From positions 1-33,629 of the forward strand of contig JAFQBB010000006.1 in the NCBI GenBank assembly GCA_017416805.1: 33,629 bases of DNA, written 5' to 3'. Position numbers and translations under genes: made by a program. A model generated the notes under the pieces. The model was given only the letters and a program-made list of their open reading frames with translations, made no database searches and was not told the origin of the DNA. Position 1 is the stretch's first letter, and each line of letters begins with the position of its first letter. Shown here piece after piece: positions 999-33,551 of this stretch. Source of the stretch: Bacteroidaceae bacterium. GTDB taxonomy: Bacteria; Bacteroidota; Bacteroidia; Bacteroidales; Bacteroidaceae.

Positions 999-3701
999 TT
1001 ATTTCAGACGGGCACCCGTTACGCTATATACGGCATCGCCAACAACGATAACGAGCTTGCCATCAATGACCTTCTTGAGAGGACGAACGGCAACAACCGC
1101 CTCGGGAGCTACTACCACCTCTTCGATACCGGCAGCCAAATCTTCCTTCATAGCGGCAGATTTCTCACCTTGGTTGAACACGTAGATGTCGTGAACGGCC
1201 TGTGAGCTTCCCTTGATAGAAGACAAACGAACGTAAACTTCATCGGTTCCTTCGTAAGCGACCTCAAACTTCTTGTAGAGACGCTTCACGGTTGAAGTCT
1301 GGAGCGTATCGCCCACCTGTGTCCAAGTAGCACTGTCGGCAGAAACCTCTACAGCCAAGCGACCACCTGAACTTACATTGGCTATAATAGCAACCACGTT
1401 GAACGGACCTGCAAATTTTTTGGTTGACTGGATAGCACCCGTATATTGGTCACCCGAGGCAACACCACCAAACTGGATACACTGTGCTGTACCCAAATTC
1501 TCAATATAGTCTTCTGCACGATCGGGATTGTAACCGCTACCATCACCAATAGCACCGCCCAATGAAGTCTTCTGCCAAATCATCACCTGACCACGAGACA
1601 TAAGCAGCCAATCAGGATCATTTACATTTCTTACCACAGAGTAAGGTCTTGGAGTAGTTTCGTACACGGGATTTCCATCACCACCATAAACAGGCTCGCC
1701 ATTTTCGTCGGTCATAATATCGCCTTCTTCGTAGCTCTTCGCAGCAGTCTTACCCCATGAGAAGTAATAGTTGCTATTAACCCAAGCTGTATAAGGTTCG
1801 CCATCGAGTGTCAGGTTCTCCAATGTATTCCACTCGGCACCTGTCACCGTAAAGTGTGCCAACTCATCGCGACGAATCTTATCGACATTGGCAAATATCT
1901 GCTGAGAAACCAGTTCGGATTGGATAAGTCCCAGCGTGTCGCTGATAGCAAAAGCTGTGATGGTAGCACTGATAGGCAATGTGACAGGACCATCGTATTT
2001 GGAGGATTCTGCAATCTTGTCTGAACCGATAAAGTTGTAGTAGATGTCAACCAAGTCAGACTCAGCACTGATAGAAACAACTGCATTTTCGCTCAAACCG
2101 CCTCCAGCACATGTAATGACGGGAGCCTTTGCCTGATGGAAGAGTTCAACATTGAATGTATCGACCGCACTGACAGTATAGCCATCGGCAATGGCAATAG
2201 CCAAAAGGGTAGCCTCCTGAGTGAAGACAACAGGTTCGGTATAAAGAGTACTTGACAAAGTTGGTTCAGAGCCATCGGTTGTGTAATAGAACCGGGCATT
2301 CTTGGCACCTGAAATGGAAACGGTTGTCTCCATCTCCTTGTACTCAGCCGTAAAGCTCGGTTTTGCAGTAGCGGTCACATCGCGCTTGCTGGCAAGAGTC
2401 TGGGCAAAGATACTCTGGACAAGCGTCTCGGTACCAGCTGCAAAATTCTCGCTCACACCATAGTAAGCATATTGGTTATGACCATTGTTATAGACGTATG
2501 CCAACAGCGAGTCAGCATAAGCAGTGTAACCGTCCAATTCGCCAAGACATACATACTTCTTGACATCCTTCTGACCAGTCACCACCATCGGAGAAGAGGT
2601 CACCTCGGAAAGGATACACTTGACAGAGTCACCATAATAAGCCCCAAAGTCTGTAAAGATTGAATTGGTAGGTTCCAACACCCATGCGATAGGAGATTCA
2701 GCCTCGACTACAGTACCAAAGCCAAGAGCCTCGGCCAACTTGCCGTTCACATTGAACACAGGCTGCCAGTAGATGTTCTCCTTCAAGAAAGAGACGAGTT
2801 CGGCATTGTCGGCAGAAAGAGAGCCATCGAGTACAATACCATCGTAAGCCATCAAAGAGTCCTTATGAGGCAGACCATTGTCGATGTTGATGCCCTCGAG
2901 GGTAACACCGGAAGTAGCGCTCAACACACCGTAAAGCGGAAGTTCCTCCATAGCCGTTTCACCGGAATAGAGATAACCGGCATTGTACGAAGGGCCTTCG
3001 CCAGTACCGTCGCCCACCTGAATGTAATAGATATGGCAACCCTTGTTGTTGTGCAAAGTAATATCGTAAGTACCATCCTCGTTGGGAGTATCGGTCAGGT
3101 CTGTAGGCAGATACCAAGAGAGATCCTGGTACGTCGTGGGATATGCAACAGCGTTGCCTTCCTTATCCATCAACTCTGTCCCCGTCTTTCCACGTCCAAC
3201 ATAGAGTTTGACACCACGAGCATCTGAGAACTTGTGAGACTCTACACCAATCTTAATTTCTGTACCGGGCTTTACATTGGGGATTACAATGTAACTCAAG
3301 TCAGACCCGCTGAACCAAAGGTATTGGGGACCGTTGTAAGGCCCGAAGTTCGTACCGTCCAAAGGAGTACAGTCGCCATAATTCACAGCAATGGCCAAGC
3401 TGCGGTCTTTCGTATGAAGGAACAACAAGCCTTCAAGTTCCTTGACGGGTGTACCGCCAATAGCGAGAGGAGCACCCTCGGCTGAGCCGTGAGCCTTCAT
3501 TTCCCAAAAGCAGTTGTCTTTAGCAATGTCGGCAGGAGCTGTCCAAGCCTCCTTTTCAATGTCCGACCATTCAGTTTTATCAACATTCGCAGCCTTCAAA
3601 TTGGCCACAGTCTCAGCACTCCAGTTGGTGAAGTCCCAACGTTGTGCACTCATGCTCATTGCCATAACCAAGGCAACGGCAGAAAGTAAAAGTTTCTTCA
3701 T
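999..3701 (-). CDS. Secreted multidomain protein with chitobiase-C-terminal-like repeats (paralog A)
   Basis: A 900-residue protein of unknown function, probably exported: residues 1-19 form a signal peptide (MKKLLLSAVALVMAMSMSA). Residues 20-235 look like a beta-rich N-terminal domain starting with a WDFT motif that I know from secreted Bacteroides and Prevotella proteins. Residues 240-440 form a domain I do not recognise. Residues about 458-520 and 538-605 resemble chitobiase/hexosaminidase C-terminal-type repeats (YYTTDGSEP, YYNF). Residues 612-850 resemble a carbohydrate-binding-type beta-sandwich. The protein ends in a short tail, VYSVTGARLK. No catalytic domain was recognised. It has a tandem paralog at 4211-6844, nearly identical towards the C-terminus but strongly diverged in the first 200 residues. 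A role in binding surface glycans is a guess only. Confidence 0.85.
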   Translation of the reverse strand: MKKLLLSAVALVMAMSMSAQRWDFTNWSAETVANLKAANVDKTEWSDIEKEAWTAPADIAKDNCFWEMKAHGSAEGAPLAIGGTPVKELEGLLFLHTKDRSLAIAVNYGDCTPLDGTNFGPYNGPQYLWFSGSDLSYIVIPNVKPGTEIKIGVESHKFSDARGVKLYVGRGKTGTELMDKEGNAVAYPTTYQDLSWYLPTDLTDTPNEDGTYDITLHNNKGCHIYYIQVGDGTGEGPSYNAGYLYSGETAMEELPLYGVLSATSGVTLEGINIDNGLPHKDSLMAYDGIVLDGSLSADNAELVSFLKENIYWQPVFNVNGKLAEALGFGTVVEAESPIAWVLEPTNSIFTDFGAYYGDSVKCILSEVTSSPMVVTGQKDVKKYVCLGELDGYTAYADSLLAYVYNNGHNQYAYYGVSENFAAGTETLVQSIFAQTLASKRDVTATAKPSFTAEYKEMETTVSISGAKNARFYYTTDGSEPTLSSTLYTEPVVFTQEATLLAIAIADGYTVSAVDTFNVELFHQAKAPVITCAGGGLSENAVVSISAESDLVDIYYNFIGSDKIAESSKYDGPVTLPISATITAFAISDTLGLIQSELVSQQIFANVDKIRRDELAHFTVTGAEWNTLENLTLDGEPYTAWVNSNYYFSWGKTAAKSYEEGDIMTDENGEPVYGGDGNPVYETTPRPYSVVRNVNDPDWLLMSRGQVMIWQKTSLGGAIGDGSGYNPDRAEDYIENLGTAQCIQFGGVASGDQYTGAIQSTKKFAGPFNVVAIIANVSSGGRLAVEVSADSATWTQVGDTLQTSTVKRLYKKFEVAYEGTDEVYVRLSSIKGSSQAVHDIYVFNQGEKSAAMKEDLAAGIEEVVVAPEAVVAVRPLKKVIDGKLVIVVGDAVYSVTGARLK

Positions 3702-4090: not shown

Positions 4091-4152
4091 AAAAAATTCA
4101 AGGTTTAAAGTTCAGAAGGTTACTGTTTGAACCTTGAACCTTAAACCTTGAA
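4091..4152 (-). terminator. Rho-independent terminator after the 877-aa paralog
   Basis: Arms 4097-4114 and 4135-4152 pair over 18 positions, followed on the minus strand by TTTTTT. Compared with the copy at 797-860 there is one base change in an arm. In the minus-strand RNA it gives a G-U pair, while the plus-strand RNA would have an A-C mismatch. This supports function in the sense direction of the gene. Confidence 0.8.
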
Positions 4153-4210
4153 CCAAAAGGATACCCGCGAAGTTTCAGCAAAGCGGAAACGTCCGCGCCT
4201 GAGTCATCAA

Positions 4211-6844
4211 TTATTTCAGACGGGCACCCGTTACGCTATATACGGCATCGCCGACAACGATAACGAGCTTGCCATCAATGACCTTCTTGACAGGACGAAC
4301 GGCAACAACCGTCTCGGGAGCTACAACCACCTCTTCGATACCGGCAGCCAACTCTTCCTTCATAGCGGCAGATTTCTCACCGTGGTTGAACACGTAGATG
4401 TCGTGAACAGCCTGTGAAGAGCCCTTGATAGAAGCCAAACGAACGTAAACCTCGTCGGTTCCTTCGTAAGAAACTTCAAACTTCTTATAGAGACGCTTCA
4501 CAGTTGAAGTCTGAAGCGTATCGCCCACCTGTGTCCAAGTAGCACTGTCGGCAGAAACCTCTACTGCCAAGCGACCACCTGAACCCACATTGGCTATGAT
4601 AGCAACCACGTTGAATGGGCCTGCAAACTTCTTGGTTGATTGGATAGAACCAGTATATATATCACCAGATTCCACACCACCAAACTGGATATCACCAGTT
4701 GTTCCAAGTTTTTCAAGATAATCTTCTGCACGTTCCGGGTTATAACCACCACCATCACCGATATTGGCACCCAAAGTATTACCCTGATAAATCATTACCT
4801 GACCACAAGAAACAAGTTGCCAGTCGGGGTCTGCACTATTTGTTGTCACCGAGTATGCTTTTGGAGTCTTCTCATACACAAAATTACCCGTTTCATCTAC
4901 CACAGGATCACCATTCTCATCAACCACAGCATCACCTTCTTCGTAGCTCTTTGCGGCTGTCTTACCCCATGAGAAGTAATAGTTACTATTAGTCCATGCT
5001 ACCATCTGCTCGCCATCAAGAGTCAGGTTCTCCAATGTGTTCCATCCTGCACCATTCACCTTGAAGTGAGCCAACTCGTCGCGACGAATCTTTTCAACAT
5101 TGGCAAACACCTGCTGAGAAGCCAACTCGGACTGAACAAGACCTAATGTATCGCTGACAGCAAAAGCATAGATAGTAGCACTGACAGGCAAGGTGATGGG
5201 ACCATCATACAAACTTGACTCGTTTATCTTTTCAGAACCAGTGAAGTTGTAATAGATGTCAACCAATTCAGCCTCAGCCTCCAATGTAATGACAGCATTT
5301 TCAGCCAAGCCATTGCCTGTGCAATTGATAACAGGCATCTTTGCCTGATGGTAAAGCAATACATCGATAGAATTAACTTCACTTACCAAATAACCATCGG
5401 TAATAGCAAGTGCCTTGATGGTCACACCTTCGGTAGTAACGGAGATAGGCTCTGTATATACAGGACTTACACCTACAACAGGTTCTGTACCATCGATGGT
5501 GTAATAGATAGTGGCATTCTTGTTGAGGCAAGAGATAGAGATGACAGACTCCATTTCCTTATAATCGCCAGTAAAGGCGGGTTTCGGAGTTTCAGACACT
5601 TCGGTCTTTGAAGCCAATGTCTGTACAAACAGGTTCTTTACAAGAACTTCTGTGCTACCTGCATACTCCTCACCTACACCGTAGTATGTGTATTGGTTAT
5701 GACCTGCGTTATAAACGTATGCCAAGAGGGAGTCAGAATATACAGTATAGTCTTCAAAGCCACAAAGAGAAACATACTTCTTGATGTTCTTCTGGCCTGT
5801 TACTACCATCGGGCAAGAAGCCGTTTCGGAAAGAATACATTTGAGAGAGTCACCATAATAAGCACCCTCGAAACCTTCAAAAACTGCATCTTTAGGCTCC
5901 AACACCCAAGCAATAGGAGCTTCGGGAGTTACCACTGAACCGAAACCAAGAGCTTCGGCCAACTTGCCATTCACATTGAACACAGGCTGCCAATAGATGT
6001 TCTCCTTCAAGAAAGAGACGAGTTCGGCATTATCAGCAGAGAGGCTACCATCAAGAACAACAGCATCGAGAGCCATCAAAGAATCTTTTACGGGAAGACC
6101 ATTGTCGATGTTGATGCCCTTGAAAGTAAGGTTCTCAACATTTTTCAACATGCCGTAAAGAGGAAGGTCCTCCATAGCCGTTGCTCCAGAATAGAGATAA
6201 CCTGCAGTGTAAGATTCAGCTTCGTCGCCAGCACCAATAATGATATAGTAAATATGGTGACCACTGGTAGAAGAGAGTTTCAAAGTTGACTCCTCGGTGT
6301 TAGAGTTGATGAGTTCTACCTCAACAACGGTGGCGTCAGCCTTACTGGTAAATTGAGTGTTCCCCTCTGCATCAGCAAAACCGCTACTTACCTTAAAACC
6401 ACGAGCTTGTGAATTTGAGTGTGAACAGTAACCAATCTTCACATTCTCACCGGCAGGAACCTTGAAAGAAACATAGTCATAATTTTTGTTTCCATTAATC
6501 CAAAGGCAGGCCAAATCAGGGAAAGAAGAATTTTTCGTGAATCCATCATAAATCTGGACATGAGCCGAGTTTTTCATTGCGCCCAACTCAAGGCCTTCCA
6601 ATTCGGGTACAGGAATCTGTTCGCCATTGTAGTTCATCTTAGCAGTAAGGTCACTGGCTTTACCTGTATTTTGGAAACCGGTACCCTGCACTGTCCAGAG
6701 TTCCGTATCCTGTGCCATAATTTCAAGGGTAGTAGCACTCCATCCTTTAGTAAAATCCCATGTGCGGCGATAACCATCACCTGCACCAAATGCTGACAAC
6801 ACACTGAGCACTGCCAACGAGAGAATCAAGTAAATTTTCTTCAT
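4211..6844 (-). CDS. Secreted multidomain protein with chitobiase-C-terminal-like repeats (paralog B)
   Basis: An 877-residue tandem paralog of the protein at 999-3701. It has a signal peptide at about residues 1-21 (MKKIYLILSLAVLSVLSAFG). The N-terminal domain (22-205) carries the WDFTKGWS motif but is otherwise much diverged from paralog A. The unknown central domain (213-415) is highly conserved between the two, including an identical block around VLDGSLSADNAELVSFLKEN. Two chitobiase-C-terminal-like repeats follow (about 430-500, 515-585; YYTIDGTEP, YYNF). The C-terminal sandwich-like region (590-830) and VYSVTGARLK tail are almost identical to paralog A. It has its own promoter and terminator. 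It probably arose by duplication including the 3' untranslated region. Function and ligand are unknown. Confidence 0.85.
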   Translation of the reverse strand: MKKIYLILSLAVLSVLSAFGAGDGYRRTWDFTKGWSATTLEIMAQDTELWTVQGTGFQNTGKASDLTAKMNYNGEQIPVPELEGLELGAMKNSAHVQIYDGFTKNSSFPDLACLWINGNKNYDYVSFKVPAGENVKIGYCSHSNSQARGFKVSSGFADAEGNTQFTSKADATVVEVELINSNTEESTLKLSSTSGHHIYYIIIGAGDEAESYTAGYLYSGATAMEDLPLYGMLKNVENLTFKGINIDNGLPVKDSLMALDAVVLDGSLSADNAELVSFLKENIYWQPVFNVNGKLAEALGFGSVVTPEAPIAWVLEPKDAVFEGFEGAYYGDSLKCILSETASCPMVVTGQKNIKKYVSLCGFEDYTVYSDSLLAYVYNAGHNQYTYYGVGEEYAGSTEVLVKNLFVQTLASKTEVSETPKPAFTGDYKEMESVISISCLNKNATIYYTIDGTEPVVGVSPVYTEPISVTTEGVTIKALAITDGYLVSEVNSIDVLLYHQAKMPVINCTGNGLAENAVITLEAEAELVDIYYNFTGSEKINESSLYDGPITLPVSATIYAFAVSDTLGLVQSELASQQVFANVEKIRRDELAHFKVNGAGWNTLENLTLDGEQMVAWTNSNYYFSWGKTAAKSYEEGDAVVDENGDPVVDETGNFVYEKTPKAYSVTTNSADPDWQLVSCGQVMIYQGNTLGANIGDGGGYNPERAEDYLEKLGTTGDIQFGGVESGDIYTGSIQSTKKFAGPFNVVAIIANVGSGGRLAVEVSADSATWTQVGDTLQTSTVKRLYKKFEVSYEGTDEVYVRLASIKGSSQAVHDIYVFNHGEKSAAMKEELAAGIEEVVVAPETVVAVRPVKKVIDGKLVIVVGDAVYSVTGARLK

Positions 6845-7896: not shown

Positions 7897-10488
7897 TCAT
7901 TTAATCACAAACGGAAGTTTCTGCACGTCTTCAGCCCGCGAGCTGCTACCGTACAGAATCTCGTATTTACCGGACATAACGCGCATGGCATTGCTCTTGA
8001 CATCGAAACATTCGAAACGTTCGGCCGGGAGTTCCAGTGCCACTCTTGCAGACTGGCCGGGCTTCAAAGAGATACGTTTGAAAGCCTTCAGACTCTTGAT
8101 AGGACCTTCCCGGTCATCTACACGGCGGATATAGACTTGCACGACCTCCTCACCTGCAATCTTTCCTGAATTTCTTACCGGCACCGTAACTATTACCGAC
8201 TCATCCTTACCCATTGCCATCTTGGAAAGTTCGGCCTTGCCATATTCAAAGGTAGTATAGCTGAGTCCGTAGCCAAACGGATAAAGCGGTTCGCCCAAGA
8301 AATAACGGTAAGTACGGCCACGCATAGAATAGTCCTGAAAATCGGGCAACTGGTCAATCCCCTTGTAGAAAGTGACAGGCAGACGACCCGCAGGATTGTA
8401 ACGTCCCATAAGGACATCGGCCACAGCCGTACCACCTGCCTGACCGGGATACCACGCCTGAACAACCGCTTCGCAATTGCGACTTTCAGGCACAAGCCCC
8501 ATAGCCGAACCTGAGAAATTGACAAATACCACACGCTTGCCAGCATTCTTCAAAGCCTGCACCACCCGACGCTGCACTGCCGGAAGCTGGATATCCTCAC
8601 GGTCGCCACCACGGAAGCCGGGAGCACTGACGGGCATCTCCTCGCCTTCCAGACTGGGAGAGATACCTCCGGCAAAGATAACGACATCGGCTTTCGCTAC
8701 AGTTTTCAACAATGCCGGTATATTGACCGGACGACTGGCTCCCATATCGAAAGTCAGGTATGCCGACTTTTCGATATGGCGGTAACGCAACTCTACATCG
8801 TATGCTTTTCCGGCTTGGGCATCCATCGTATAGAAAACTGTGGTCTGCTTGACAGCGCCCTCATCCTTAGCCACCTCCTTGCCATCGACAAGCAAGGTGT
8901 ATTCTCCACGCATCTTAATCAGGAAATCAACCTTCCCGCTCTCCTTCGGACGGAAAGTGGTGCGATAAACACCTGAGAAATTGGAAAGAGGAATACCCGG
9001 CGCAACAGCCGTGGCACCATCTGTGGTAAAAAGGACGGGAGTAGTTTGGCGGGTTACGGCCGCAGGTTCACCCTCAAAGCGGTTATTGGTCCAGAAACTG
9101 GCATCAAATCCCTGACCATTCTCCGTACCGCATTGGTCGAAAAGACTGACAAAGGTAGTCTCTGCCGTACGGTCACAGGCCGGATGATAGATCAGTTTGT
9201 CGGCCGGAACATATTTCCGCATAGCCTCGAGCAGTGTTACTGTATGAGCCGGAAATCCATTATAGTTACCCCATTGCATCACCGAGTCATTGGCATTGGG
9301 GCCAATGAGTGCAATAGTCTGTCCCTCTTTTAAAGGCAGGATGTTGTTTTCGTTTTCCAACAGGACAATACTCTTGCGTGCCATCTCAAGGGCCAACTGT
9401 TGGTGCTTGCGGCTATTGATGACCGATGATGGGATCGTATCCCACGGAGTGGAGGGATCCATTTCTCCCAATTCAAAACGTGCCTGAAACAAGCGGCATA
9501 CAGCACGGTCGATATCAGCCTCTTTGATTTGTCCGTTCTTTACGGCATCCACCAATCCTTTATAAGAGCTTCCACACTCAAGGTCTGTACCACTCAACAC
9601 TGCAGCGGCTGAAGCATCAGCCCTATCTTTATGTGTTTCATGATGTCCCTCCATGAAGAAATCCCGAATGGCACCACAATCACTGACAACAATCCCCTCG
9701 AAGCCCCACTCTTCGCGCAAAATCTGCATCAACAGGCGGTCGCTCCCACAACAGGGGTCTCCCTCATAACGATTATAGGCACACATCACTTCCTTCACTT
9801 TGGTTTTCTGCACCAGATCCTTGAAGGCCGGCAAATAGGTTTCCCAAAGATCACGCGGACTGATGTCCTTAGCATCAAAACTATGACGATTCCACTCAGG
9901 GCCTGAATGTACTGCAAAGTGTTTGGCGCAAGCATGAGCCTTATCATACTTGCTATCCTCCGGTCCCTGCAAACCGCGCACCACGGCCATCCCCATCCGG
10001 CCCGTATGGAAGGGGTCTTCGCTATAAGTCTCCTGACCACGCCCCCAACGCGGGTCACGGAAAATGTTGATATTGGGTGTCCAGAAAGTCAACCCCTGAT
10101 AGCGTTTGTAACTGTTCTCCTCACGGGCAAGACGTGTCTTTGCACGAGCCTCATCACTGACCGCATTGAACACCTCATAAAGCAATTCGTCATCAAACGA
10201 GGCTCCCATACCAATGGACTGTGGAAAAACTGTGGCCAATCCGGCACGTCCTACCCCATGCAAAGCTTCATTCCACCACTCATAAGGTTTGATTCCCAAA
10301 CGGGGAACTGCTGGTGAAGCATTTTGCATCAGGGCCACTTTTTCCTCCAAAGTGAGCCTGCTCACCAAGTCGGCAGCACGTTCTTTGGGCGACAAAGAGG
10401 CGTTTTTGTACGGTTCGGTCTGTGTGCATGCAGACACTCCCAACATGCATACGCAAAATACGAAAAAATAAAGTCCTTTAGTTTTCAT
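7897..10488 (-). CDS. GH3 beta-xylosidase-type lipoprotein with PA14-like insert
   Basis: An 863-residue glycoside hydrolase family 3 enzyme that should remove terminal xylose (or similar sugars) from hemicellulose oligosaccharides. A lipobox VSAC with Cys21 indicates a lipoprotein. The N-terminal GH3 barrel covers about 30-345, with the nucleophile Asp270 in VVSDCGA and the KHF motif at 189-191. The C-terminal domain (365-745) is interrupted by a PA14-like insert (about 450-585). The motif SLEGEEM (612-618) probably holds the acid/base glutamate. A fibronectin-III-like domain ends the protein (about 785-855). Length and layout match Xyl3A-type enzymes of Prevotella. It lies 33 bases after folE with no promoter seen between them, so it is probably the last gene of a housekeeping operon. 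No susC/susD pair is nearby. Exact sugar specificity is inference. Confidence 0.92.
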   Translation of the reverse strand: MKTKGLYFFVFCVCMLGVSACTQTEPYKNASLSPKERAADLVSRLTLEEKVALMQNASPAVPRLGIKPYEWWNEALHGVGRAGLATVFPQSIGMGASFDDELLYEVFNAVSDEARAKTRLAREENSYKRYQGLTFWTPNINIFRDPRWGRGQETYSEDPFHTGRMGMAVVRGLQGPEDSKYDKAHACAKHFAVHSGPEWNRHSFDAKDISPRDLWETYLPAFKDLVQKTKVKEVMCAYNRYEGDPCCGSDRLLMQILREEWGFEGIVVSDCGAIRDFFMEGHHETHKDRADASAAAVLSGTDLECGSSYKGLVDAVKNGQIKEADIDRAVCRLFQARFELGEMDPSTPWDTIPSSVINSRKHQQLALEMARKSIVLLENENNILPLKEGQTIALIGPNANDSVMQWGNYNGFPAHTVTLLEAMRKYVPADKLIYHPACDRTAETTFVSLFDQCGTENGQGFDASFWTNNRFEGEPAAVTRQTTPVLFTTDGATAVAPGIPLSNFSGVYRTTFRPKESGKVDFLIKMRGEYTLLVDGKEVAKDEGAVKQTTVFYTMDAQAGKAYDVELRYRHIEKSAYLTFDMGASRPVNIPALLKTVAKADVVIFAGGISPSLEGEEMPVSAPGFRGGDREDIQLPAVQRRVVQALKNAGKRVVFVNFSGSAMGLVPESRNCEAVVQAWYPGQAGGTAVADVLMGRYNPAGRLPVTFYKGIDQLPDFQDYSMRGRTYRYFLGEPLYPFGYGLSYTTFEYGKAELSKMAMGKDESVIVTVPVRNSGKIAGEEVVQVYIRRVDDREGPIKSLKAFKRISLKPGQSARVALELPAERFECFDVKSNAMRVMSGKYEILYGSSSRAEDVQKLPFVIK

Positions 10489-10521
10489 TGGAATAATAAA
10501 TTAAGTTCTGTGTAGGAAAAG

Positions 10522-11112
10522 TCAGAAATGACCTCCACGAATCAGATTCATGAATTCTTCACGGGTTTTGGCCTGATTGAAAGCGCCAGTAAAATCAGAG
10601 GTTGTAGTAATGGAATTCTGCTTCTCCACACCACGCATCTGCATGCACATGTGTTTGGCCTCAATGACCACCATGACACCCAAAGGATTCAATGTTTCCT
10701 GTATGCACTCCTTGATTTGTGTGGTCATACGTTCCTGCACTTGCAGACGATGTGAAAAAATATCCACCACGCGAGCTATCTTGCTCAACCCTGTAATGTA
10801 TCCATTCGGAATATAGGCAACATGAGCCTTACCATAAAAAGGAAGCATATGGTGCTCGCAAAGTGAGTAGAAATTGATATCCTTCACGATGACCATTTGG
10901 CGATAATCTTCTTGGAACTTGGCAGAATTCAACACGGCCTTCGGATCCATCCGATATCCTTTTGTCAAGGTCAACATAGCCTTAGCCACCCGCTCGGGGG
11001 TTTTCAACAGACCTTCACGCTCTACATCCTCACCAAGCAAAGATAATATTTCCCTATAATGCTCTTTCAGCCCAACAACAATCTCTGGAGACAAGTTTTC
11101 TTCCGTCTGCAT
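10522..11112 (-). CDS. folE: GTP cyclohydrolase I
   Basis: A 196-residue enzyme that converts GTP to 7,8-dihydroneopterin triphosphate, the first step of folate and pterin synthesis in the cytoplasm. The zinc ligands are visible as Cys85 and His88 in [10 protein letters not shown] and Cys156 in HMCMQMRGV. The motif [20 protein letters not shown] is typical of the family. The length is normal for the compact bacterial form. It starts 12 bases after the stop of the SPOR-domain gene and is followed after 33 bases by the GH3 gene, so it belongs to the tpiA operon. Confidence 0.97.
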
Positions 11113-15997: not shown

Positions 15998-18094
15998 CTA
16001 ACTAATGTCCGACCAATTGACATTGGTTTTCCTCATCTGCTTCAAACGTCTCCACATCATGGCATGGGATGCGGCTGTACCATCGGGGTCATTCTCAACG
16101 ACTTGGCGGGCAACTTCACGCACATGTTGCAAAAGTTGTGCATCGCGGGTGATGTTGGCTATACGCAAATCAAAAGCGACACCACTCTGCTGGGTGCCTT
16201 CCAGATCACCCGGTCCACGAAGTTTGAGGTCGGCTTCTGCAATTTCAAAGCCATCGTTGGTTTGCACCATGATATCAATACGCTTGCGGGTGTCTTCTGA
16301 CAGTTTATAACCCGTAACAAGAATACAATAAGACTGGTCAGCCCCACGACCTACACGTCCACGCAACTGATGAAGTTGGGAAAGGCCAAAACGCTCTGCA
16401 TTCTCAATAACCATTACGGAGGCATTGGGGACATTCACCCCCACTTCAATCACGGTAGTAGCCACCATTATTTGTGTCTCGCCCGTAACAAAACGTTGCA
16501 TCTCAGCATCTTTCTCTGCAGGTTTCATTTTTCCATGCACTTTGCAAACCTTATATTCGGGAAATACCTCACAAACGGTCTGATAACCATCTTCCAGATT
16601 TTTCAAATCCATTTTCTCACTTTCTTTGATGAGAGGATAGACTATATAAATCTGGCGGCCCTCCTGAATCTGGCGACGAATATCGGCATAAAGAGAAGCA
16701 CGCCGGTTATCGAACTGATGCACGGTGCGGACAGGCTTACGTCCAGGAGGCAATTCATCAATGATAGAGACATCAAGGTCACCATAAAGCGTCATAGCCA
16801 ACGTGCGGGGAATAGGAGTAGCAGTCATTACAAGAACATGGGGCGGAGTAGCACTCTTTTTCCACAACTTAGCCCGTTGGGCCACGCCAAAACGGTGTTG
16901 CTCATCAATAATGGCCATACCAAGGCGGGCAAAGGATACGGTGTCTTCCAATAAGGCATGAGTACCTATAAGGATATGTATCTGCCCCGTGAGCACACCT
17001 TCAAGGATTTCAGCACGACGCTTACCTTTAATACTGCCCGTCAGGAGTTCCACCCTGACATTCATCCCACAAAGCATACGGGTAACGGTTTCGTAATGCT
17101 GGGCGGCCAATATCTCGGTCGGTGCCATCATACAAGCCTGGAAACCATTATCCAAAGCTATGAGCATTGACATCAGAGCCACCAACGTTTTGCCACTGCC
17201 AACATCTCCTTGAAGGAGACGATTCATTTGACGGCCGCTACCTATATCCTTACGTATCTCCTTGATTACACGTTTTTGAGCACCAGTAAGCTCAAAAGGC
17301 AGATTTTGTGTATAAAAAGTATTGAACACCTCGCCAACTTTTCCGAACACGAAACCACAATAGCGTTGCTGGCGTTCCTTCATGTAACGTAAAATGTTGA
17401 GTTGCACGAAGAAGAGTTCCTCAAACTTCAAACGAAATTGGGCTCGCCGCAAATCTTCAGGAGTTTTTGGAAAATGAATATTCATCAATGCTTCGGTTAG
17501 CGAAACAAGATGATTTTTTTCGATAATATAATCAGGAAGGGTTTCAGGAAGAGGCTCTTTAATCAGGTCGTGCAGATTGGCCATCAACTTCTCTATAGTT
17601 CGAGAGTTGAGCCAATTATGTTTCATCTTCTCCGTTGTATTGTAATAGGGCTGTAACCCCATACTGGAAAGCACCAGTTCGTCGGCCGGATCAATATCAG
17701 GATGGGCAATGTTCACCCGCCCACCATACACAGCCGGCTTACCAAAAACGATATAAGGAGTACGCACTTTGTATTTACCCGTGACAAATCTCAATCCTTT
17801 AAACCACACAAGGTCAACCACCCCTGTACCATCAGAGAAATGGGCAACCAACCGTTTACGATATCCTTCACCCACCTCCTCAAAACTAAGAATCTGCCCA
17901 CGCAACTGGATATAGGGCATGTTTCCATCTATTTCGTGTACATAGTAAAGACGGCTACGATCAATGTATTTATACGGAAAATAGTATAGCAAATCGTGCA
18001 ACGAACGGATACCAAGCTCCTTCTCCAGTACAGTTGCCCGCTGAGGGCCTACACCGGGGAGAAACTTGATGTCACGTGTTGCAAGATCGAACAT
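15998..18094 (-). CDS. recG: ATP-dependent DNA helicase RecG
   Basis: A 698-residue branched-DNA helicase that remodels stalled replication forks and Holliday junctions. The N-terminal wedge/OB region (about 1-150) includes a FLPGVGPQRA helix-hairpin motif. The helicase core has the Walker A motif GDVGSGKT (296-303), a Walker B/DEQH box (397-400), MTATPIPRTLAM, and the C-terminal QLRGRVGRG motif VI. The length is normal. It is the last gene of the pdxJ operon; a 200-base gap with octamer arrays separates it from ispD, and the array begins directly at its start codon. Confidence 0.98.
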   Translation of the reverse strand: MFDLATRDIKFLPGVGPQRATVLEKELGIRSLHDLLYYFPYKYIDRSRLYYVHEIDGNMPYIQLRGQILSFEEVGEGYRKRLVAHFSDGTGVVDLVWFKGLRFVTGKYKVRTPYIVFGKPAVYGGRVNIAHPDIDPADELVLSSMGLQPYYNTTEKMKHNWLNSRTIEKLMANLHDLIKEPLPETLPDYIIEKNHLVSLTEALMNIHFPKTPEDLRRAQFRLKFEELFFVQLNILRYMKERQQRYCGFVFGKVGEVFNTFYTQNLPFELTGAQKRVIKEIRKDIGSGRQMNRLLQGDVGSGKTLVALMSMLIALDNGFQACMMAPTEILAAQHYETVTRMLCGMNVRVELLTGSIKGKRRAEILEGVLTGQIHILIGTHALLEDTVSFARLGMAIIDEQHRFGVAQRAKLWKKSATPPHVLVMTATPIPRTLAMTLYGDLDVSIIDELPPGRKPVRTVHQFDNRRASLYADIRRQIQEGRQIYIVYPLIKESEKMDLKNLEDGYQTVCEVFPEYKVCKVHGKMKPAEKDAEMQRFVTGETQIMVATTVIEVGVNVPNASVMVIENAERFGLSQLHQLRGRVGRGADQSYCILVTGYKLSEDTRKRIDIMVQTNDGFEIAEADLKLRGPGDLEGTQQSGVAFDLRIANITRDAQLLQHVREVARQVVENDPDGTAASHAMMWRRLKQMRKTNVNWSDIS

Positions 18095-18098
18095 GAGA

Positions 18099-18194
18099 TT
18101 AATGGGTTAATGGGTTAATGGGCTAATGGGCTAATGTGCCAATGGGCTAATGGGCTAATGGGTCAATGGGTTAATGGGTCAATGGGTCAATGGA
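18099..18194. repeat. Octamer array next to the recG start
   Basis: Twelve consecutive 8-base units of consensus (T/C)(T/C)AATGGG run from 18099 to 18194 without a phase break. The array starts 5 bases from the recG start codon. A second array of inverted, related units lies at 18236-18307, so the intercistronic RNA could fold on itself. Confidence 0.9.
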
Positions 18195-18235
18195 CTGATT
18201 GATTACAATGTGGTAATGTACTAGTGCCGCATGGT

Positions 18236-18307
18236 ACATTGGCACATTGGCATATTGACACATTGGCATATTGACACATTGGCACATTAGCACATTAGCA
18301 CATTGAA
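18236..18307. repeat. Inverted octamer array running into ispD
   Basis: Nine consecutive 8-base units of consensus ACATTGGC/ATATTGAC/ACATTAGC, the reverse-complement family of the array at 18099-18194. The last units include the ispD stop codon and the codons for its final residues. Confidence 0.9.
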
Positions 18308-18963
18308 TTACCCACCACAAGGTCGAAGGGCGTAGTTATCTTGATATTCTCACGATTACCCTGCACGAGGGTTACTTCGTGGCCAAGAGCTTCGACCACC
18401 GAGGCATCATCGGTAAAGGCTGGGACGTAGGGCTGTGCGTATGCTTTCTTTAACAGAGCAAGAGAAAACACCTGCGGCGTCTGCACCAGTTTGTAATCAT
18501 CCCTGCTAACGGTGGTACTCCGTCCATTTCCCTCCAGATGGCGCACCGTTTCCACCACATCAATTACGGGCACTACAGCCTCCACACGAGCAGCTTCGGC
18601 ATAACACCGGGCAATGACTCCGGTCGAGACAAAAGGACGAACACCATCGTGCACACCTACCAAAGCATCCTCATCCGCAGGGATAGTATCCAATCCATTC
18701 TTGACGGAGTGAAAACGCGTTTCGCCCCCATTGGCCAAACAGTAAGGCAACGTGAACGCATATTGGGCGCAGAGTTCTTTCCAATACGTTTGCTGAGCAA
18801 CGGGGAGTACCAACACTATCCGTATCTCCGCATCGTACGCATGAAAAGCCTCCATTGTACGCATCAATACAGGCTTACCGCCAACGGGAAGAAACTGCTT
18901 AGGCACCTCACCTCCCATGCGAAGGCCTTTACCACCAGCTACGATGATGATGTATTTGGTCAT
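18295..18963 (-). CDS. ispD: 2-C-methyl-D-erythritol 4-phosphate cytidylyltransferase
   Basis: A 222-residue enzyme of the non-mevalonate isoprenoid pathway, transferring CMP from CTP to methylerythritol phosphate. The N-terminal nucleotide-binding motif [15 protein letters not shown], the loop [12 protein letters not shown], the motif VQTPQVF and TDDASVVE near the C-terminus mark the family. The very C-terminus (SMC) is encoded within an octamer repeat array, so it may be a repeat-derived extension. Upstream in the operon is the DJ-1 gene; downstream is recG. Confidence 0.97.
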
Positions 18964-18965
18964 AT

Positions 18966-19060
18966 AGCTACGAGTTATGAGTTATGAGTTATGAGCTACG
19001 AGTTATGAGTTACAAGCTATTCGCCACTCGTAGCTTGTAGCTAGTAACCCACAACTCATT
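18966..19060. repeat. Facing heptamer arrays in the DJ-1/ispD gap
   Basis: Eight consecutive 7-base units (AGCTACG, AGTTATG and variants) fill 18966-19021 next to the ispD start codon. Five inverted-type units (ACTCGTA, GCTTGTA, GCTAGTA, ACCCACA, ACTCATT) fill 19026-19060 and overlap the DJ-1 stop codon. The inner TACAAGCTA/TAGCTTGTA forms a 9-bp stem. Confidence 0.9.
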
Positions 19061-19607
19061 AATTATACAACATTCCGGCTTTCACCTGAGCAACTATCTC
19101 CTCACCTACCAAGACTTCCGCCAAAGTGTATGCAAAAGGAAGCACCACAGCAGGGCCTTTACCAGTGATGATGTTACCATCTTTCTCTACAGCGACGGCG
19201 GTATAGGTAGAACCAGCCAACTCTCCCTCAAAGCCCGGATAGCAAGTTGCCTTTCTGCCATCAAGCAATCCCATGTGTCCATACACCATAGGAGCGGCAC
19301 AAATGGCAGCCAACCACTTGCCCGCTTCTGCATGAGCAGTTATCAGACGGCGAAGCCCTTCATGGGCATCCAGATTGGCAGCCCCTGGCATTCCTCCGGG
19401 AAGTATCAGCATATCGGCATCGGCATACTGTGCTTGTTCAAACAGGACATCGGCCATTACAGGAATACCATGAGCACCAGTCACCAATCCGGTTGGATTG
19501 ATTGACACTTTTGTCACTTGCACTCCTGCGCGACGCAAGACATCCACGGTTGCCAAAGCCTCAATCTCCTCGAATCCATCAGCAAGAAATAAAAGAACGG
19601 TTTTCAT
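19059..19607 (-). CDS. DJ-1/PfpI family protein
   Basis: A 182-residue cytoplasmic protein of the DJ-1 (YajL/ThiJ) superfamily. The reactive cysteine is Cys103 in AAICAAP, and Glu16 in DGFEEIEA is the acidic partner. Relatives act as protein or metabolite deglycases or oxidative-stress proteins; the exact substrate here is unknown. It starts 4 bases after the tonB stop, so translation is probably coupled, and it precedes ispD. Confidence 0.92.
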   Translation of the reverse strand: MKTVLLFLADGFEEIEALATVDVLRRAGVQVTKVSINPTGLVTGAHGIPVMADVLFEQAQYADADMLILPGGMPGAANLDAHEGLRRLITAHAEAGKWLAAICAAPMVYGHMGLLDGRKATCYPGFEGELAGSTYTAVAVEKDGNIITGKGPAVVLPFAYTLAEVLVGEEIVAQVKAGMLYN

Positions 19608-19611
19608 GTTT

Positions 19612-20448
19612 TTATTTCAATTTAAAATAATAGGTTATCGTACCGCTTTGGTTATTTACCCCATCAGCAGTATTGAATCGGGCTTTGCGGGCTGCATCCA
19701 AAGCAGCCTTACGAAGAGCCGGATTCACCGTATTGGTACGACGATGAATGTCTGCACTGACTACACGTCCGGAAGGATTGACAAGAATTGTCACCACCAC
19801 ACGACCTTCATCAGCCACTCTGTAGTCCGGCTTTGGCAAATCTCCCACCAAACCACGTCCACCCAAGTCGAATGTACCATAACCACTCTCTCCAGCAGGC
19901 TTCCCAGTCTCGCTATTCCCTTCGTTAGAACCTTGTATGCCCGTCTTTGCCTCTGCTTCACCCCGATTGGCCATATCTGAACCCTTTCCAAAGGCGCCGG
20001 CTATACTCTTGGCCGCGCGTTCGGCAGCTGCACGTTCGGCTTCGGCACGAAGTTCTGCCTCGGTCTTTTCTTTCGGACTCTCCACAGGGGTATCTACCGG
20101 CCTTTTAGGGGTTGTTTCCAATTTTTGGGTTTCCTTTTTCTTTTGTTCGATGGATACGGTTTCCTCCATATCCTGAGAGATAATTTCCTCCCCTACCTGA
20201 GAAATATTTTTTTCAGGTGCAGCAGAAATTTTTTCTGCAGAAGGTAGAATATCCACCTCGGTCATCTTGTACCGGTCGCCCTCGCCTTGCGCCAACATCT
20301 CTGTACCCAGCAGGACAGGCACACCACTCTCGACTTGCGGCTCGGATGCCCGTATGAAAAGGAACCACATAAGCAGGAGCAACACACCATGCACAAGCAA
20401 AGTGCCCAACAGACCTATGAGTTTTTCTTTACGATTATCGTTGTCCAT
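19612..20448 (-). CDS. tonB: TonB family energy transducer
   Basis: A 278-residue inner-membrane protein that carries proton-motive energy to outer-membrane receptors. One N-terminal membrane anchor lies at about 10-32 (LLGTLLVHGVLLLLMWFLF). A charged Glu/Lys/Pro/Ala-rich periplasmic linker follows (about 60-165), including an EAERAAAERAAK helix. The C-terminal TonB domain (about 195-278) contains GRVVVTILVNPSGRVVSADI and AALDAARKARFN. It is directly downstream of exbB and exbD, its usual partners. Whether it serves TonB-dependent transport or a Tol-type role cannot be told from sequence. Confidence 0.93.
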   Translation of the reverse strand: MDNDNRKEKLIGLLGTLLVHGVLLLLMWFLFIRASEPQVESGVPVLLGTEMLAQGEGDRYKMTEVDILPSAEKISAAPEKNISQVGEEIISQDMEETVSIEQKKKETQKLETTPKRPVDTPVESPKEKTEAELRAEAERAAAERAAKSIAGAFGKGSDMANRGEAEAKTGIQGSNEGNSETGKPAGESGYGTFDLGGRGLVGDLPKPDYRVADEGRVVVTILVNPSGRVVSADIHRRTNTVNPALRKAALDAARKARFNTADGVNNQSGTITYYFKLK

Positions 20449-20461
20449 TTTTTCAGTTTTT

Positions 20462-20540
20462 AGCTACGAGTGAAGAGCTACAAGTAAGCAACAAATTTGA
20501 CGCCTATCATTTATAGCTCATCGCTTGCCACTATTCACTT
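20462..20540. repeat. Facing heptamer arrays in the exbD/tonB gap
   Basis: Four 7-base units (AGCTACG, AGTGAAG, AGCTACA, AGTAAGC) at 20462-20489 near the tonB start face four inverted-type units (ATAGCTC, ATCGCTT, GCCACTA, TTCACTT) at 20513-20540, which run over the exbD stop codon. Confidence 0.75.
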
Positions 20541-20951
20541 CTTCTCCGGGCGGCGTGTAGCCAGCACCATTTTGAATTGGTTTTCGTTAGCGATATTCAA
20601 CACCTTCACAATCTCGCGATAAGGAATGGTCTCATCAGCATACAGAGCCACATACATCTCCGGCTCTTTAGCGGCACACTCTTGCAAGAAGGCGGGAAGC
20701 TCTTCCCACGTAACAGGCATTTCGTCCTGATTACCAAAAGCCGTGTAGCAATTGAGGTCTTTATCGATAATGACTCGCGTGAGAGGTTTGGCCGAAGTTT
20801 GTTGTTTGCCCTGAGGCAAAAGCACCTTGATAGCATTGGGTGACACCATGGTAGAGGTTATCATGAAGAATATCAGCAACAAGAAGATGATATCCGTCAT
20901 GGAAGCCATGCTGAATTCCGGTTTGATTTTTGTTCTTCGTTTCAGTGCCAT
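20535..20951 (-). CDS. exbD: ExbD/TolR family biopolymer transport protein
   Basis: A 138-residue inner-membrane protein that forms the proton channel stator with ExbB. One membrane segment (about 18-37) carries the conserved proton-relaying Asp20 in MTDIIFLLLIFF. The rest is the small periplasmic domain. The length is normal. It lies between exbB and tonB, separated from each by a gap with heptamer arrays. Confidence 0.95.
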   Translation of the reverse strand: MALKRRTKIKPEFSMASMTDIIFLLLIFFMITSTMVSPNAIKVLLPQGKQQTSAKPLTRVIIDKDLNCYTAFGNQDEMPVTWEELPAFLQECAAKEPEMYVALYADETIPYREIVKVLNIANENQFKMVLATRRPEKK

Positions 20952-20959
20952 AGTTACTT

Positions 20960-21043
20960 AGTTATCAGCTACGAGCTGCAAGTTACGAGTAAAGCTACAT
21001 GACAAAGGACTTATCACTCGTAGCTTGTCGCTCATCACCACAT
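20960..21043. repeat. Facing heptamer arrays in the exbB/exbD gap
   Basis: Five 7-base units (AGTTATC, AGCTACG, AGCTGCA, AGTTACG, AGTAAAG) at 20960-20994 near the exbD start face four inverted-type units (ACTCGTA, GCTTGTC, GCTCATC, ACCACAT) at 21016-21043, which touch the exbB stop codon. Confidence 0.85.
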
Positions 21044-21759
21044 TAATTTACAAAATCCATAAAGGCCAAGGTCTTAGCCTCCATCTCATTGACAATATTA
21101 TCTACTTTTCCTACCAGATAATTGTAGGCAAACATAGCGGCAATACCTACAATCAGTCCGCCCACGGTTGTAATCATGGCTTGATAAATGCCACTCGACA
21201 AAAGGGTTATATCAATATTATTGCCCGCATTGGACATCTCCCAAAAAGCCTGCACCATACCGGTAACAGTACCTAAGAATCCTATCATAGGAGCACCACT
21301 GGCTATTGTGGCCATAACAGGAAGATGACGCTCAAGTTTTGCCACTTCCAGATTTCCCGCATTTTCGATAGCAGCCTGCACATCGGTAGCCGAGCGGTCT
21401 ATACGGCTAAGACCTTTCTCTATCATACGTGATGCCGGTGTATTGGTCATACGGCAATAGTTTACGGCCGACTTCAGTTCGCCCGAATGCACATAGTCGC
21501 GGATACGCTCCATAAAATGCGGATCGTCCTTACTTGCTTTACGTAACGCAGCCAGACGCTCAAAAAATATATAAAAACAAACGATGGACAACAAAGCCAA
21601 TACAGCCATTATCCAACCTCCCTTGAGAGCCATATCCCACAAACTCATTTCTGCAACAACCGGCCCTGTCACCTCTGCAGCCATTTCGTTTACACCGGTC
21701 ACAACTTCTTCTCCCACTTGGGCAGCCGCTTGAGCCACCAACAATAATAACATATTCAT
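21043..21759 (-). CDS. exbB: ExbB/TolQ/MotA-family proton channel protein
   Basis: A 238-residue inner-membrane protein with three or more membrane segments: about 48-68 (WIMAVLALLSIVCFYIFF), 150-172 (PMIGFLGTVTGMVQAF) and 185-210 (ITTVGGLIVGIAAMFAYNYL). The GTVTGM motif is typical. The N-terminus includes an extra hydrophobic stretch (MNMLLLLVAQAAAQ) that may be a signal sequence, as in other Bacteroidetes ExbB proteins. It forms a proton-driven motor with the ExbD encoded next to it. Confidence 0.95.
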   Translation of the reverse strand: MNMLLLLVAQAAAQVGEEVVTGVNEMAAEVTGPVVAEMSLWDMALKGGWIMAVLALLSIVCFYIFFERLAALRKASKDDPHFMERIRDYVHSGELKSAVNYCRMTNTPASRMIEKGLSRIDRSATDVQAAIENAGNLEVAKLERHLPVMATIASGAPMIGFLGTVTGMVQAFWEMSNAGNNIDITLLSSGIYQAMITTVGGLIVGIAAMFAYNYLVGKVDNIVNEMEAKTLAFMDFVN

Positions 21760-21767
21760 AGGTTCAT

Positions 21768-21795
21768 TTACAAATTACAATTTACAAATTATCAG
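21768..21795. repeat. One-sided heptamer array in the pdxJ/exbB gap
   Basis: Four 7-base units (TTACAAA, TTACAAT, TTACAAA, TTATCAG) lie just upstream of the exbB start. No inverted partner array is seen before the pdxJ stop codon. Confidence 0.7.
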
Positions 21796-21817
21796 AGCAG
21801 AATCTACCAACCCGCTC

Positions 21818-22531
21818 TCAAGAAAGGCACTTCTTATATTGCCCAATAGTATCTTTCAAGCCCATATAAAGAGCATCACAAATCAGCGCATGGCCAATAC
21901 TGGCCTCATCAATCCAAGGAATGGTTTCGTGCAGATATTGAAGATTCTCCAAACTAAGGTCATGCCCCACATTCAATCCCAATCCCAACGAGCGTGCCAC
22001 CCGGGCAGCCTCAAGGAAGGGAGCAACAGCTTTCTCACGATTTTCAGCATAAAATGCAGCATACGGCTCGGTGTATAGCTCTACACGATCAGCTCCTATC
22101 TTCGCGGCACACTCGATGAAACGAGGTGTAGTATCCACAAACAGGGAAGTACGTATGCCCGCATCATTAAATTCTCCCACCACTTCGGACAAAAATCCCA
22201 TATTCTTCTCCGTATCCCATCCTGCATTAGAGGTTATCTGATCAGGAGCATCAGGCACAAGTGTCACTTGGTGAGGTTTCACCTTCAACACCAAATCCAT
22301 AAAACTTTCAGAAGGATACCCTTCAATATTGAACTCCGTACGGAGCAACGGACGCAAGTTTACCACATCAGCATAACGGATATGACGCTCATCAGGACGC
22401 GGATGCACCGTAATGCCATCAGCTCCAAAAGATTCACAATCCTGCGCCACCTTCAAAATATCCGGATTATTACCCCCCCGGGCATTGCGAATAGTGGCAA
22501 CCTTATTAATGTTTACACTTAACTTTGTCAT
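21818..22531 (-). CDS. pdxJ: Pyridoxine 5'-phosphate synthase
   Basis: A 237-residue enzyme that condenses deoxyxylulose 5-phosphate with aminoacetone phosphate to make pyridoxine phosphate (vitamin B6 pathway). Family motifs are [14 protein letters not shown] at the N-terminus, [12 protein letters not shown], and [11 protein letters not shown] near the C-terminus. The start is the ATG at 22531 (MTKLSVN); an in-frame TTG 12 bases upstream is less likely. It is the first gene of the operon that continues to exbB and ends at recG, and it is divergent from nadK. Confidence 0.96.
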
Positions 22532-23730: not shown

Positions 23731-23808
23731 GAACATATGTTCGTTGGCACTTGAACATATGTTCATTGGCACTTGGACATATGTTCGTTGACACTTGAAC
23801 ATATGTTC
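23731..23808. repeat. Four 12-bp palindromes with exact 22-bp period
   Basis: GAACATATGTTC (one copy GGACATATGTTC) starts at 23731, 23753, 23775 and 23797, exactly 22 bp apart. The 10-base spacers are also similar (GTTGGCACTT, ATTGGCACTT, GTTGACACTT). The last copy is followed by a T-run (ATTTTTTTTCCC). A degenerate copy lies at 23833-23844. The array is between the ends of convergent nadK and ompA. Confidence 0.92.
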
Positions 23809-33272: not shown

Positions 33273-33432
33273 CATCCGTAGATGACGCAGATATTTCTTG
33301 TTTCGACCTGTAGGAGGGTGTGTCATAATTCACTTTTCATCCGCAGATTGCGCAGATGACGTAGATTATTCCTTCCTATTATACCCGACAGGTTATAATT
33401 TATCTGCGTCATCTGCGTCATCTGCGGATGAA
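33273..33432. repeat. 9-mer inverted arrays (ATCTGCGTC units)
   Basis: The right arm 33402-33432 is three tandem 9-base units (ATCTGCGTC, ATCTGCGTC, ATCTGCGGA). The left arm 33336-33366 is its inverse, 28 of 31 bases complementary. A third, partial copy (CATCCGTAGATGACGCAGAT) starts at 33273. The arms can form a large hairpin. Confidence 0.85.
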
Positions 33433-33551
33433 GAATTAAATGGTGGCATTTTTGACACAGCTTCACAAATGCATAGCAGACATCTATTGGGCACCTATAT
33501 ATAATAACCTGTGAATTAGTGTTATAATTTATCTGAAATTATATTCCTTCT

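Follow-up and report, generated by a model that had tools for sequence, protein, structure and literature searches.

The window analysed here is the whole of contig C27, 33,629 nucleotides from the draft genome of a Bacteroidaceae bacterium (G000; 3.16 Mb, 91% complete). Its minus strand carries the operon pdxJ-exbB-exbD-tonB-DJ1-ispD-recG, whose seven genes are all confirmed by Pfam domains (PdxJ, MotA_ExbB, ExbD, TonB_C, DJ-1_PfpI, IspD, and RecG). The closest named match to pdxJ is 78% identical, and Bacteroides, Phocaeicola, and Bacteroidaceae lead a list of matches from which near-identical records may be absent. My subject is what lies between the genes: short tandem arrays, most of them facing an inverted array. 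The gaps of this operon are one instance of a micro-repeat class that is found throughout the genome.

Four of the six gaps carry facing arrays, with 7-base units in three and 8-base units in the fourth, just as a first reading of the DNA by itself (hereafter the sequence-only reading) had claimed. All four are significantly periodic by a lag test and fold back on themselves. In transcript order, the first arm begins on or over the upstream stop codon and the second ends next to the downstream start codon, again as claimed. The 8-base units belong to the ispD/recG gap (18095-18294; like all features of the operon, on the minus strand). Its first arm, placed by Tandem Repeats Finder (TRF) at 18232-18305, is an array of AATGTGCC/CTAATGTG type that spans the ispD stop codon. 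The second, placed by TRF at 18099-18193, is the inverted array, reads CCCATTAG/CCCATTGA in sense, and adjoins the recG start. A joint motif, CCATGCGGCACT (18223-18234), sits between the two. The DJ1/ispD gap (18964-19058) holds facing 7-mer arrays of GAGTTAT/GAGCTAC type with a TRF core at 18969-19019. Degenerate facing 7-mer arrays occupy the exbB/exbD gap (20952-21042; AGCTACG type, filling the space between the stop of exbB and the start of exbD) and the exbD/tonB gap (20449-20534), the latter the weakest of the four. The remaining two gaps are also as first described: pdxJ/exbB (21760-21817) has a one-sided 7-mer array with a TRF core at 21768-21791, and tonB/DJ1 (19608-19611) is 4 bases long. 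The further claim that the sequence changes from gap to gap is true of the 8-mer gap compared with the others but not within the three 7-mer gaps, which by eye share a family of units of AGCTACG/AGTTATG type.

The lag test takes the identity of a whole gap with itself at lags of 4 to 12 and compares it with that of 1000 dinucleotide shuffles. At lag 7 the identity is 0.50 for exbB/exbD (reached by 0 of 1000 shuffles), 0.44 for exbD/tonB (2 of 1000), 0.69 for DJ1/ispD (0 of 1000), and 0.43 for pdxJ/exbB (58 of 1000); at lag 8 it is 0.73 for the whole of ispD/recG (0 of 1000). A longest-run score is strong for pdxJ/exbB, DJ1/ispD, and ispD/recG (0 of 500 shuffles each) and weak for exbB/exbD (70 of 500) and exbD/tonB (134 of 500, with a best lag of 11). 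The score for ungapped inverted repeats is reached by 0 of 200 shuffles at exbB/exbD, DJ1/ispD, and ispD/recG, by 9 of 200 at exbD/tonB, and by 15 of 200 at pdxJ/exbB, the last in line with a one-sided array. The evidence for arrays is overwhelming for DJ1/ispD and ispD/recG, good for exbB/exbD, and weakest for exbD/tonB; exbB/exbD and exbD/tonB fall below the threshold used in the genome-wide count given below. RNA folding, which the sequence-only reading expected to exceed that of shuffled controls, is strong at DJ1/ispD (z of -6.0) and ispD/recG (-6.2) and weaker at exbB/exbD (-2.2) and exbD/tonB (-2.9), with -1.6 at pdxJ/exbB. As for familiar signals, the five array gaps with their 10-base flanks contain no stretch of at least five T that might mark an intrinsic terminator, no Rfam match reaches its gathering score within the window, and a Bacteroides promoter pattern has no match in the gaps.

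A dispersed repeat class

In 636 kb of G000 (the window plus 40 stretches from contig starts) 88 intergenic arrays have a period of 7 (46 arrays), 8 (15), or 9 (27). The same DNA holds 8 intergenic arrays of all other periods within 4-12 and 7 arrays of period 7-9 in coding DNA. With the window excluded, 80 intergenic arrays are found in 603 kb, and dropping 1 kb at both ends of the stretches leaves the density unchanged. The sequence of the exbB/exbD gap matches 98 other stretches of G000 (E up to 1), many of the matches sharing one array. Density was sampled in 9 of the 15 genomes of the genus and in all 80 named loci of other Bacteroidales. Per 100 kb there are 32 arrays in G008, 27 in G007, 14 in G000, 8 in G006, 7 in G010, 6 in G009, 3 in G011, 1 in G013, and 0 in G012, and the named loci have 6. 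Counts of density and placement include operon loci unless stated otherwise; with those excluded, the densities are 27.4 (G008), 25.7 (G007), 6.4 (G006), and 6.2 (G009).

All these counts rest on gene calls by a codon-usage method of my own and on thresholds for arrays and arms that I set. Most of the genomes are draft metagenome-assembled genomes, in which arrays may be misassembled, and related loci are not independent (L032 and L156, whose contigs are of equal length, are probably the same record, and likewise L058 and L152). The search for arms covered gaps up to about 880 bases, and gap counts begin at 25 bases. Sharing of 7-mer words across genomes proved uninformative, since single linkage joined together 131 of the 137 arrays. 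Elsewhere in the window, two 7-mer arrays of TTGAACC type (835-863 and 4126-4154) lie inside a common longer sequence and adjoin a pair of large genes that resemble each other (999-3701 and 4211-6844), the whole appearing to be one duplicated block.

The joint motif of the ispD/recG gap is itself dispersed. CCATGCGGCACT occurs at 15 places in G000, 30 in G007, 10 in G006, 9 in G003, 7 in G008, and 0-2 in the other ten members of the genus, and the same motif written backwards, as a control, occurs at most once per genome. By eye, it joins arms with different words and modules with different periods. Of the 76 distinct joint contexts, 17 lie in a called open reading frame (ORF), 10 and 6 in convergent and divergent gaps, respectively, and 3 where a contig ends, according to a crude ORF caller that erred at least at L146 5748, L147 5680, and L245 1501, all codirectional. 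The motif is found in both orientations to transcription. A first sample, with an 8-base core, gave 9 sense and 0 antisense, which might have been taken as proof of a role in RNA, but more copies gave 25 and 15 (p = 0.15) and the idea was rejected.

Other copies are dispersed as well. An irregular 24-mer stretch of arm recurs in 6 contexts in stretches of G007, in 1 of G008, and in none of G006 and G000, and the 8-mer pattern of ispD/recG is found in 5 of 151 genomes of the family, chiefly G000 and G008. A 138-base repeat with facing 9-mer arms (GATGACGCA type) lies at 33321-33458 of the window, at L114 8417, and at L120 11, the L120 copy being 129 bases, exactly one 9-base unit shorter; a fourth match to its pattern is unrelated. 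Dispersed copies show spread and change in the number of units. They do not show the enzyme.

Comparison of the same gaps in relatives, proposed along with the sequence-only reading, shows that presence and word vary and that nine congeners have near-zero gaps where these are seen. In the 80 named relatives, 342 gaps of the operon were measured, with medians of -1 to 14 bases. Eighty-six exceed 30 bases, and 18 of those carry an array (period 7 in 15, period 8 in 2, and period 11 in 1). Four operon gaps of Parabacteroides massiliensis (L100) hold arrays built on a different 7-mer word; given the distance of this species from the window's genus, I regard them as independent of the window's arrays. 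In all, L100 (noted at 7915-11001) has seven period-7 arrays in 16.7 kb, four of them those in operon gaps.

Within the genus, operon loci were obtained from 13 of 14 congeners. Filled gaps are present in G006, G007, and G008. In G009, two gaps are longer, at 47 and 97 bases (with no array by the score used), and three are of 2-9 bases, and in the nine others those seen are -16 to +21 bases (two gaps only in G002 and G014). At exbB/exbD the words are 7-mers of AGCTACG type in G000, of GTTGACAA type in G007 and G008, and of a third kind in G006, and every time the two arms share the word of their species, all by eye. The tonB/DJ1 gap, 4-12 bases in G000, G006, G008, and G009, is an 85-base array in G007. 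Thus both the presence of an array and its word change between related species, while the facing layout is kept. By eye, ispD of G006, G008, G007, and G009 (L146-L149) has an apparent in-frame N-terminal extension of about 36 codons; where those four congeners have the extension, G000 has the DJ1/ispD array.

Placement and polarity of the arms

Placement was drawn from G000, from eight congeners (four of them close, four more remote), and from the 80 named loci. The 147 gaps with arrays are 111 codirectional, 23 convergent, and 13 divergent (75.5%, 15.6%, and 8.8%). The numbers expected are 83, 27, and 37 if gaps are weighted by their bases (p = 3e-6) and 100, 21, and 26 if each gap counts once (p = 0.017). 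Fifty of the 111 codirectional elements leave fewer than 30 bases of their gap free. Among the remaining 61, the upstream stop is no more than 8 nt away for 23 and the downstream start for 10, with 5.6 expected at each; outside the operon loci and the named loci, 18 of 37 are stop-adjacent. Counted by position over these samples, then, arrays favour codirectional gaps and stop codons and avoid divergent gaps. Their placement relative to genes is far from random, so any objection to the sequence-only reading on that ground fails.

The arms have a strict order. Of 52 facing arrays in codirectional gaps, 48 lead with the G-rich arm, and so do 31 of the 34 that lie outside the operon and named loci. 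Arrays nearer the stop have more G than C in 57 cases and the reverse in 17, and those nearer the start have more C than G in 51 cases and the reverse in 16. Polarity is weaker in arrays without a partner (22 to 10 and 17 to 13), and the inverted repeats of array-less codirectional gaps have a lesser lean, G-first by 76 to 40. It is tempting to see in this the mark of the transcription strand, but the reverse complement of a facing array keeps the order of its arms, and G-first polarity was therefore dropped as a sign of strand. By the count of G minus C, convergent gaps are 5 G-first to 7 C-first and divergent gaps 3 to 1; when the arrays of such gaps are listed by unit, most of them, by eye, face the same way. 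I would hold, without proof, that arm polarity is intrinsic to the arrays. The notion that a C-rich arm is required for translation at starts was set aside, as array-less gaps of G000 and its close congeners have no excess of C at that position (77 to 77). Stable tetraloops are not enriched in sense at the tip of the hairpin.

Origin of the arrays

I propose that the arrays are a dispersed repeat class of DNA-level origin, expanding and copying themselves and placed where they are tolerated, a view to which I give a probability of about 0.55. Its members are quasi-palindromic: 7-, 8-, or 9-base units in a row, then a short joint, then a similar unit repeated in inverted orientation. Arrays would lengthen when replication slips by a unit of 7-9 bases, and template switching guided by the hairpin would copy one arm onto the other, so that both arms would change together. 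Copies would spread between places by some route, and their position would be set mostly by the tolerance of the flanking genes: in tight operons the point between stop and start would be a safe site, and gaps with promoters would be avoided. A hairpin should form in the transcript, as a by-product rather than the target of selection. The repeated process of expansion that the sequence-only reading offered as one of two possibilities is borne out by arrays throughout the genome, by arrays gained at single gaps in single species, and by dispersed copies that are one 9-base unit apart. That slippage of the polymerase might account for a unit length of 7 bases is an idea of Mrazek et al., as cited in PMC4679880 and PMC4692102.

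The other possibility was an intercistronic RNA hairpin under selection. Pairing of the arms in the mRNA, between a stop codon and the start that follows it, would serve to protect the cistrons, to process them, or to uncouple them, and the letters would drift under a constant layout. This view has in its favor the strong predicted folds of DJ1/ispD and ispD/recG, the preference for codirectional gaps and stop codons, the joint change of both arms between species, and the facing partner found in 30 of 51 gaps with arrays versus 40 of 208 without (gaps of 40-300 bases in G000 and close congeners). If a helix is selected in RNA, however, mismatches between the arms should be G.U more often than A.C on the transcript strand. 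Periodic facing arms have 70 G.U and 72 A.C over 55 segments (interval 0.41-0.575), and control inverted repeats from array-less codirectional gaps have 165 and 111 over 160 segments (interval 0.535-0.66; permutation p = 0.043). An earlier count with another grouping gave 79 to 83 for arms and 169 to 108 for controls. Since the arms have no excess of G.U, long-term selection on an RNA helix is not supported by this one test, whose power is modest. Moreover, nine congeners do without an array and almost without a gap in the places seen, and 23 of the 147 array gaps are convergent. A strong partner arm, by my score, is absent in at least 41 of the 85 codirectional array gaps counted, with 17 of 39 in G000, 13 of 28 in close congeners, and 27 of 40 in the named loci. 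I regard selected hairpins as unlikely, though they are the main rival.

A classical mobile hairpin element, of the type of repetitive extragenic palindromes (REP and REPIN) or miniature inverted-repeat transposable elements (MITE) and mobilised by a transposase or reverse transcriptase of the host genome, would explain why the joint motif and the irregular arm stretches turn up at unrelated places, why the 138-base repeat lies in three, and why the joint takes both orientations to transcription. The enzymes do not follow. Y1 transposase (PF01797) has matches in G001, G003, G007, G008, and G012 and none in G006 or in G000 (91% complete), and RVT_1 has matches in G000, G001, G007, G008, G010, G013, and G014. 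The presence of neither family tracks array density, with the proviso that several genomes are incomplete, and both REP-associated transposase (RAYT) and reverse transcriptase were rejected as the mover. Nor, by eye, do the ends of arrays have terminal repeats apart from the arms. Such an element is distinctly improbable. (G010 has 13 matches to RVT_1, with E-values of 6e-45 to 2e-43, perhaps a mobile intron that has multiplied.) Purely local birth, slippage at each gap with no spread between places, would suit a unit length that stays constant while words differ between neighboring gaps and species, but it earns still less credence, as unrelated places of one genome have words, the irregular stretch, and the joint in common.

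Several points weigh against the dispersed, tolerated repeat that I prefer. Slippage and template switching are inferred, not observed, and no mobilising enzyme tracks array density. The wobble contrast reaches a p of only 0.043, with overlapping confidence intervals, and counts of G.U and A.C can skew without a cause in RNA, for the convergent and divergent gaps of G000, where neither strand can be assigned as the transcript, together give 46 to 74 (p = 0.013). Finally, mere tolerance predicts neither stop adjacency in roomy gaps (23 of 61, with 5.6 expected) nor the G-first rule (48 of 52).

Published repeats and what is new

GGGAATC and GGGGA(T/C)T heptamers of Xanthomonas and Nostoc have been tied to G-quadruplexes (PMC4692102). 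In two genomes of Xanthomonas they are 89-93% intergenic and lie mostly between aligned ORFs, with 16% between convergent and 7-8% between divergent ones, and convergent heptamer pairs number 70 and 75 in two genomes. Across both groups the G strand is sense near stops and antisense near starts, some heptamers overlap stops, and length and sequence vary at the same genes between sister species (PMC4692102). The arrays described here resemble them in being dispersed, intergenic, set between aligned ORFs and rare between divergent ones, G-rich near the stop, C-rich near the start, and paired face to face. They differ from what that source describes in their units of 7, 8, and 9 bases, their many words, their shared joint motif, and the swapping of arm words between sister species. 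Since similar placement is published for heptamers unrelated to these, no function special to the present operon is needed. The quadruplex unit that defines the Xanthomonas and Nostoc repeats is mostly absent here: the rule of four GGG runs holds in 8 of 229 arrays (6 of 88 in G000). Among the 8 is the window's 8-base-unit arm at 18098-18193, on the start side of ispD/recG, whose antisense strand satisfies the rule, so a quadruplex may form there. The window has in addition a G-rich 9/17-base array at 427-513 that passes the rule and has a similar array at L206 308-370.

TAACTGA heptamers, reported from Beggiatoaceae, Cyanobacteria, and five Bacteroidetes, lie at gene junctions, near starts and sometimes over stops, with 169 direct sets and one inverted in the main genome (PMC4679880). 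The heptamer arrays here share those positions, but instead of one fixed word, nearly always direct, they have many words and face each other. BrickBuilt, a MITE of Porphyromonas gingivalis, has a 23-base unit and a leader and tail of terminal inverted repeats, 49-591 bases from coding sequences (PMC4596501). Like the present arrays, it is an intergenic tandem repeat of Bacteroidales within a dispersed element, but theirs are units of 7-9 bases, and they touch stops and starts. An intergenic 22-base unit with an inner palindrome, repeated 3.5 times at 23731-23808 of the window, recalls BrickBuilt in unit length. REP sequences, their mosaics (BIME), and REPINs, which go with RAYT, are palindromes scattered between genes, and several of them may be combined into a mosaic. 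Set beside these features, the arrays lack a fixed palindrome and G000 lacks a match to Y1 transposase. Beyond the TAACTGA cases I found no report of this class from Bacteroidales in the open-licence papers searched; the wider literature may hold one.

What is new is that nearly the same rules of placement and facing hold in Bacteroidales for many words, mostly unable to form quadruplexes, that swap between sister species. A bolder view, which I rate as a long shot, is that of a sequence-independent intercistronic module spanning several phyla: a dedicated copying process would lay down short tandem repeats, along with a mirrored copy, at gene junctions, and the layout (7-9 base units, a G-rich arm at the stop, a C-rich arm at the start) would be kept while each species replaces the word. 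If this were true, the shared joint motif and the strict polarity of the arms would be traces of the copying process. DRT10, a templated synthesiser of 9-nt repeats (PMC12632851), suggests by analogy a conceivable source, and nothing here links it to the arrays.

The best grounds for looking further are the adjacency to stop codons and the G-first rule, for which tolerance alone does not account. The question shifts from the word to the process: where units of 7-9 bases come from, why the arms are mirrored, and why the G-rich arm comes first. Meanwhile, intergenic hairpins in the operons of Bacteroidales should not be taken by default as regulatory parts.

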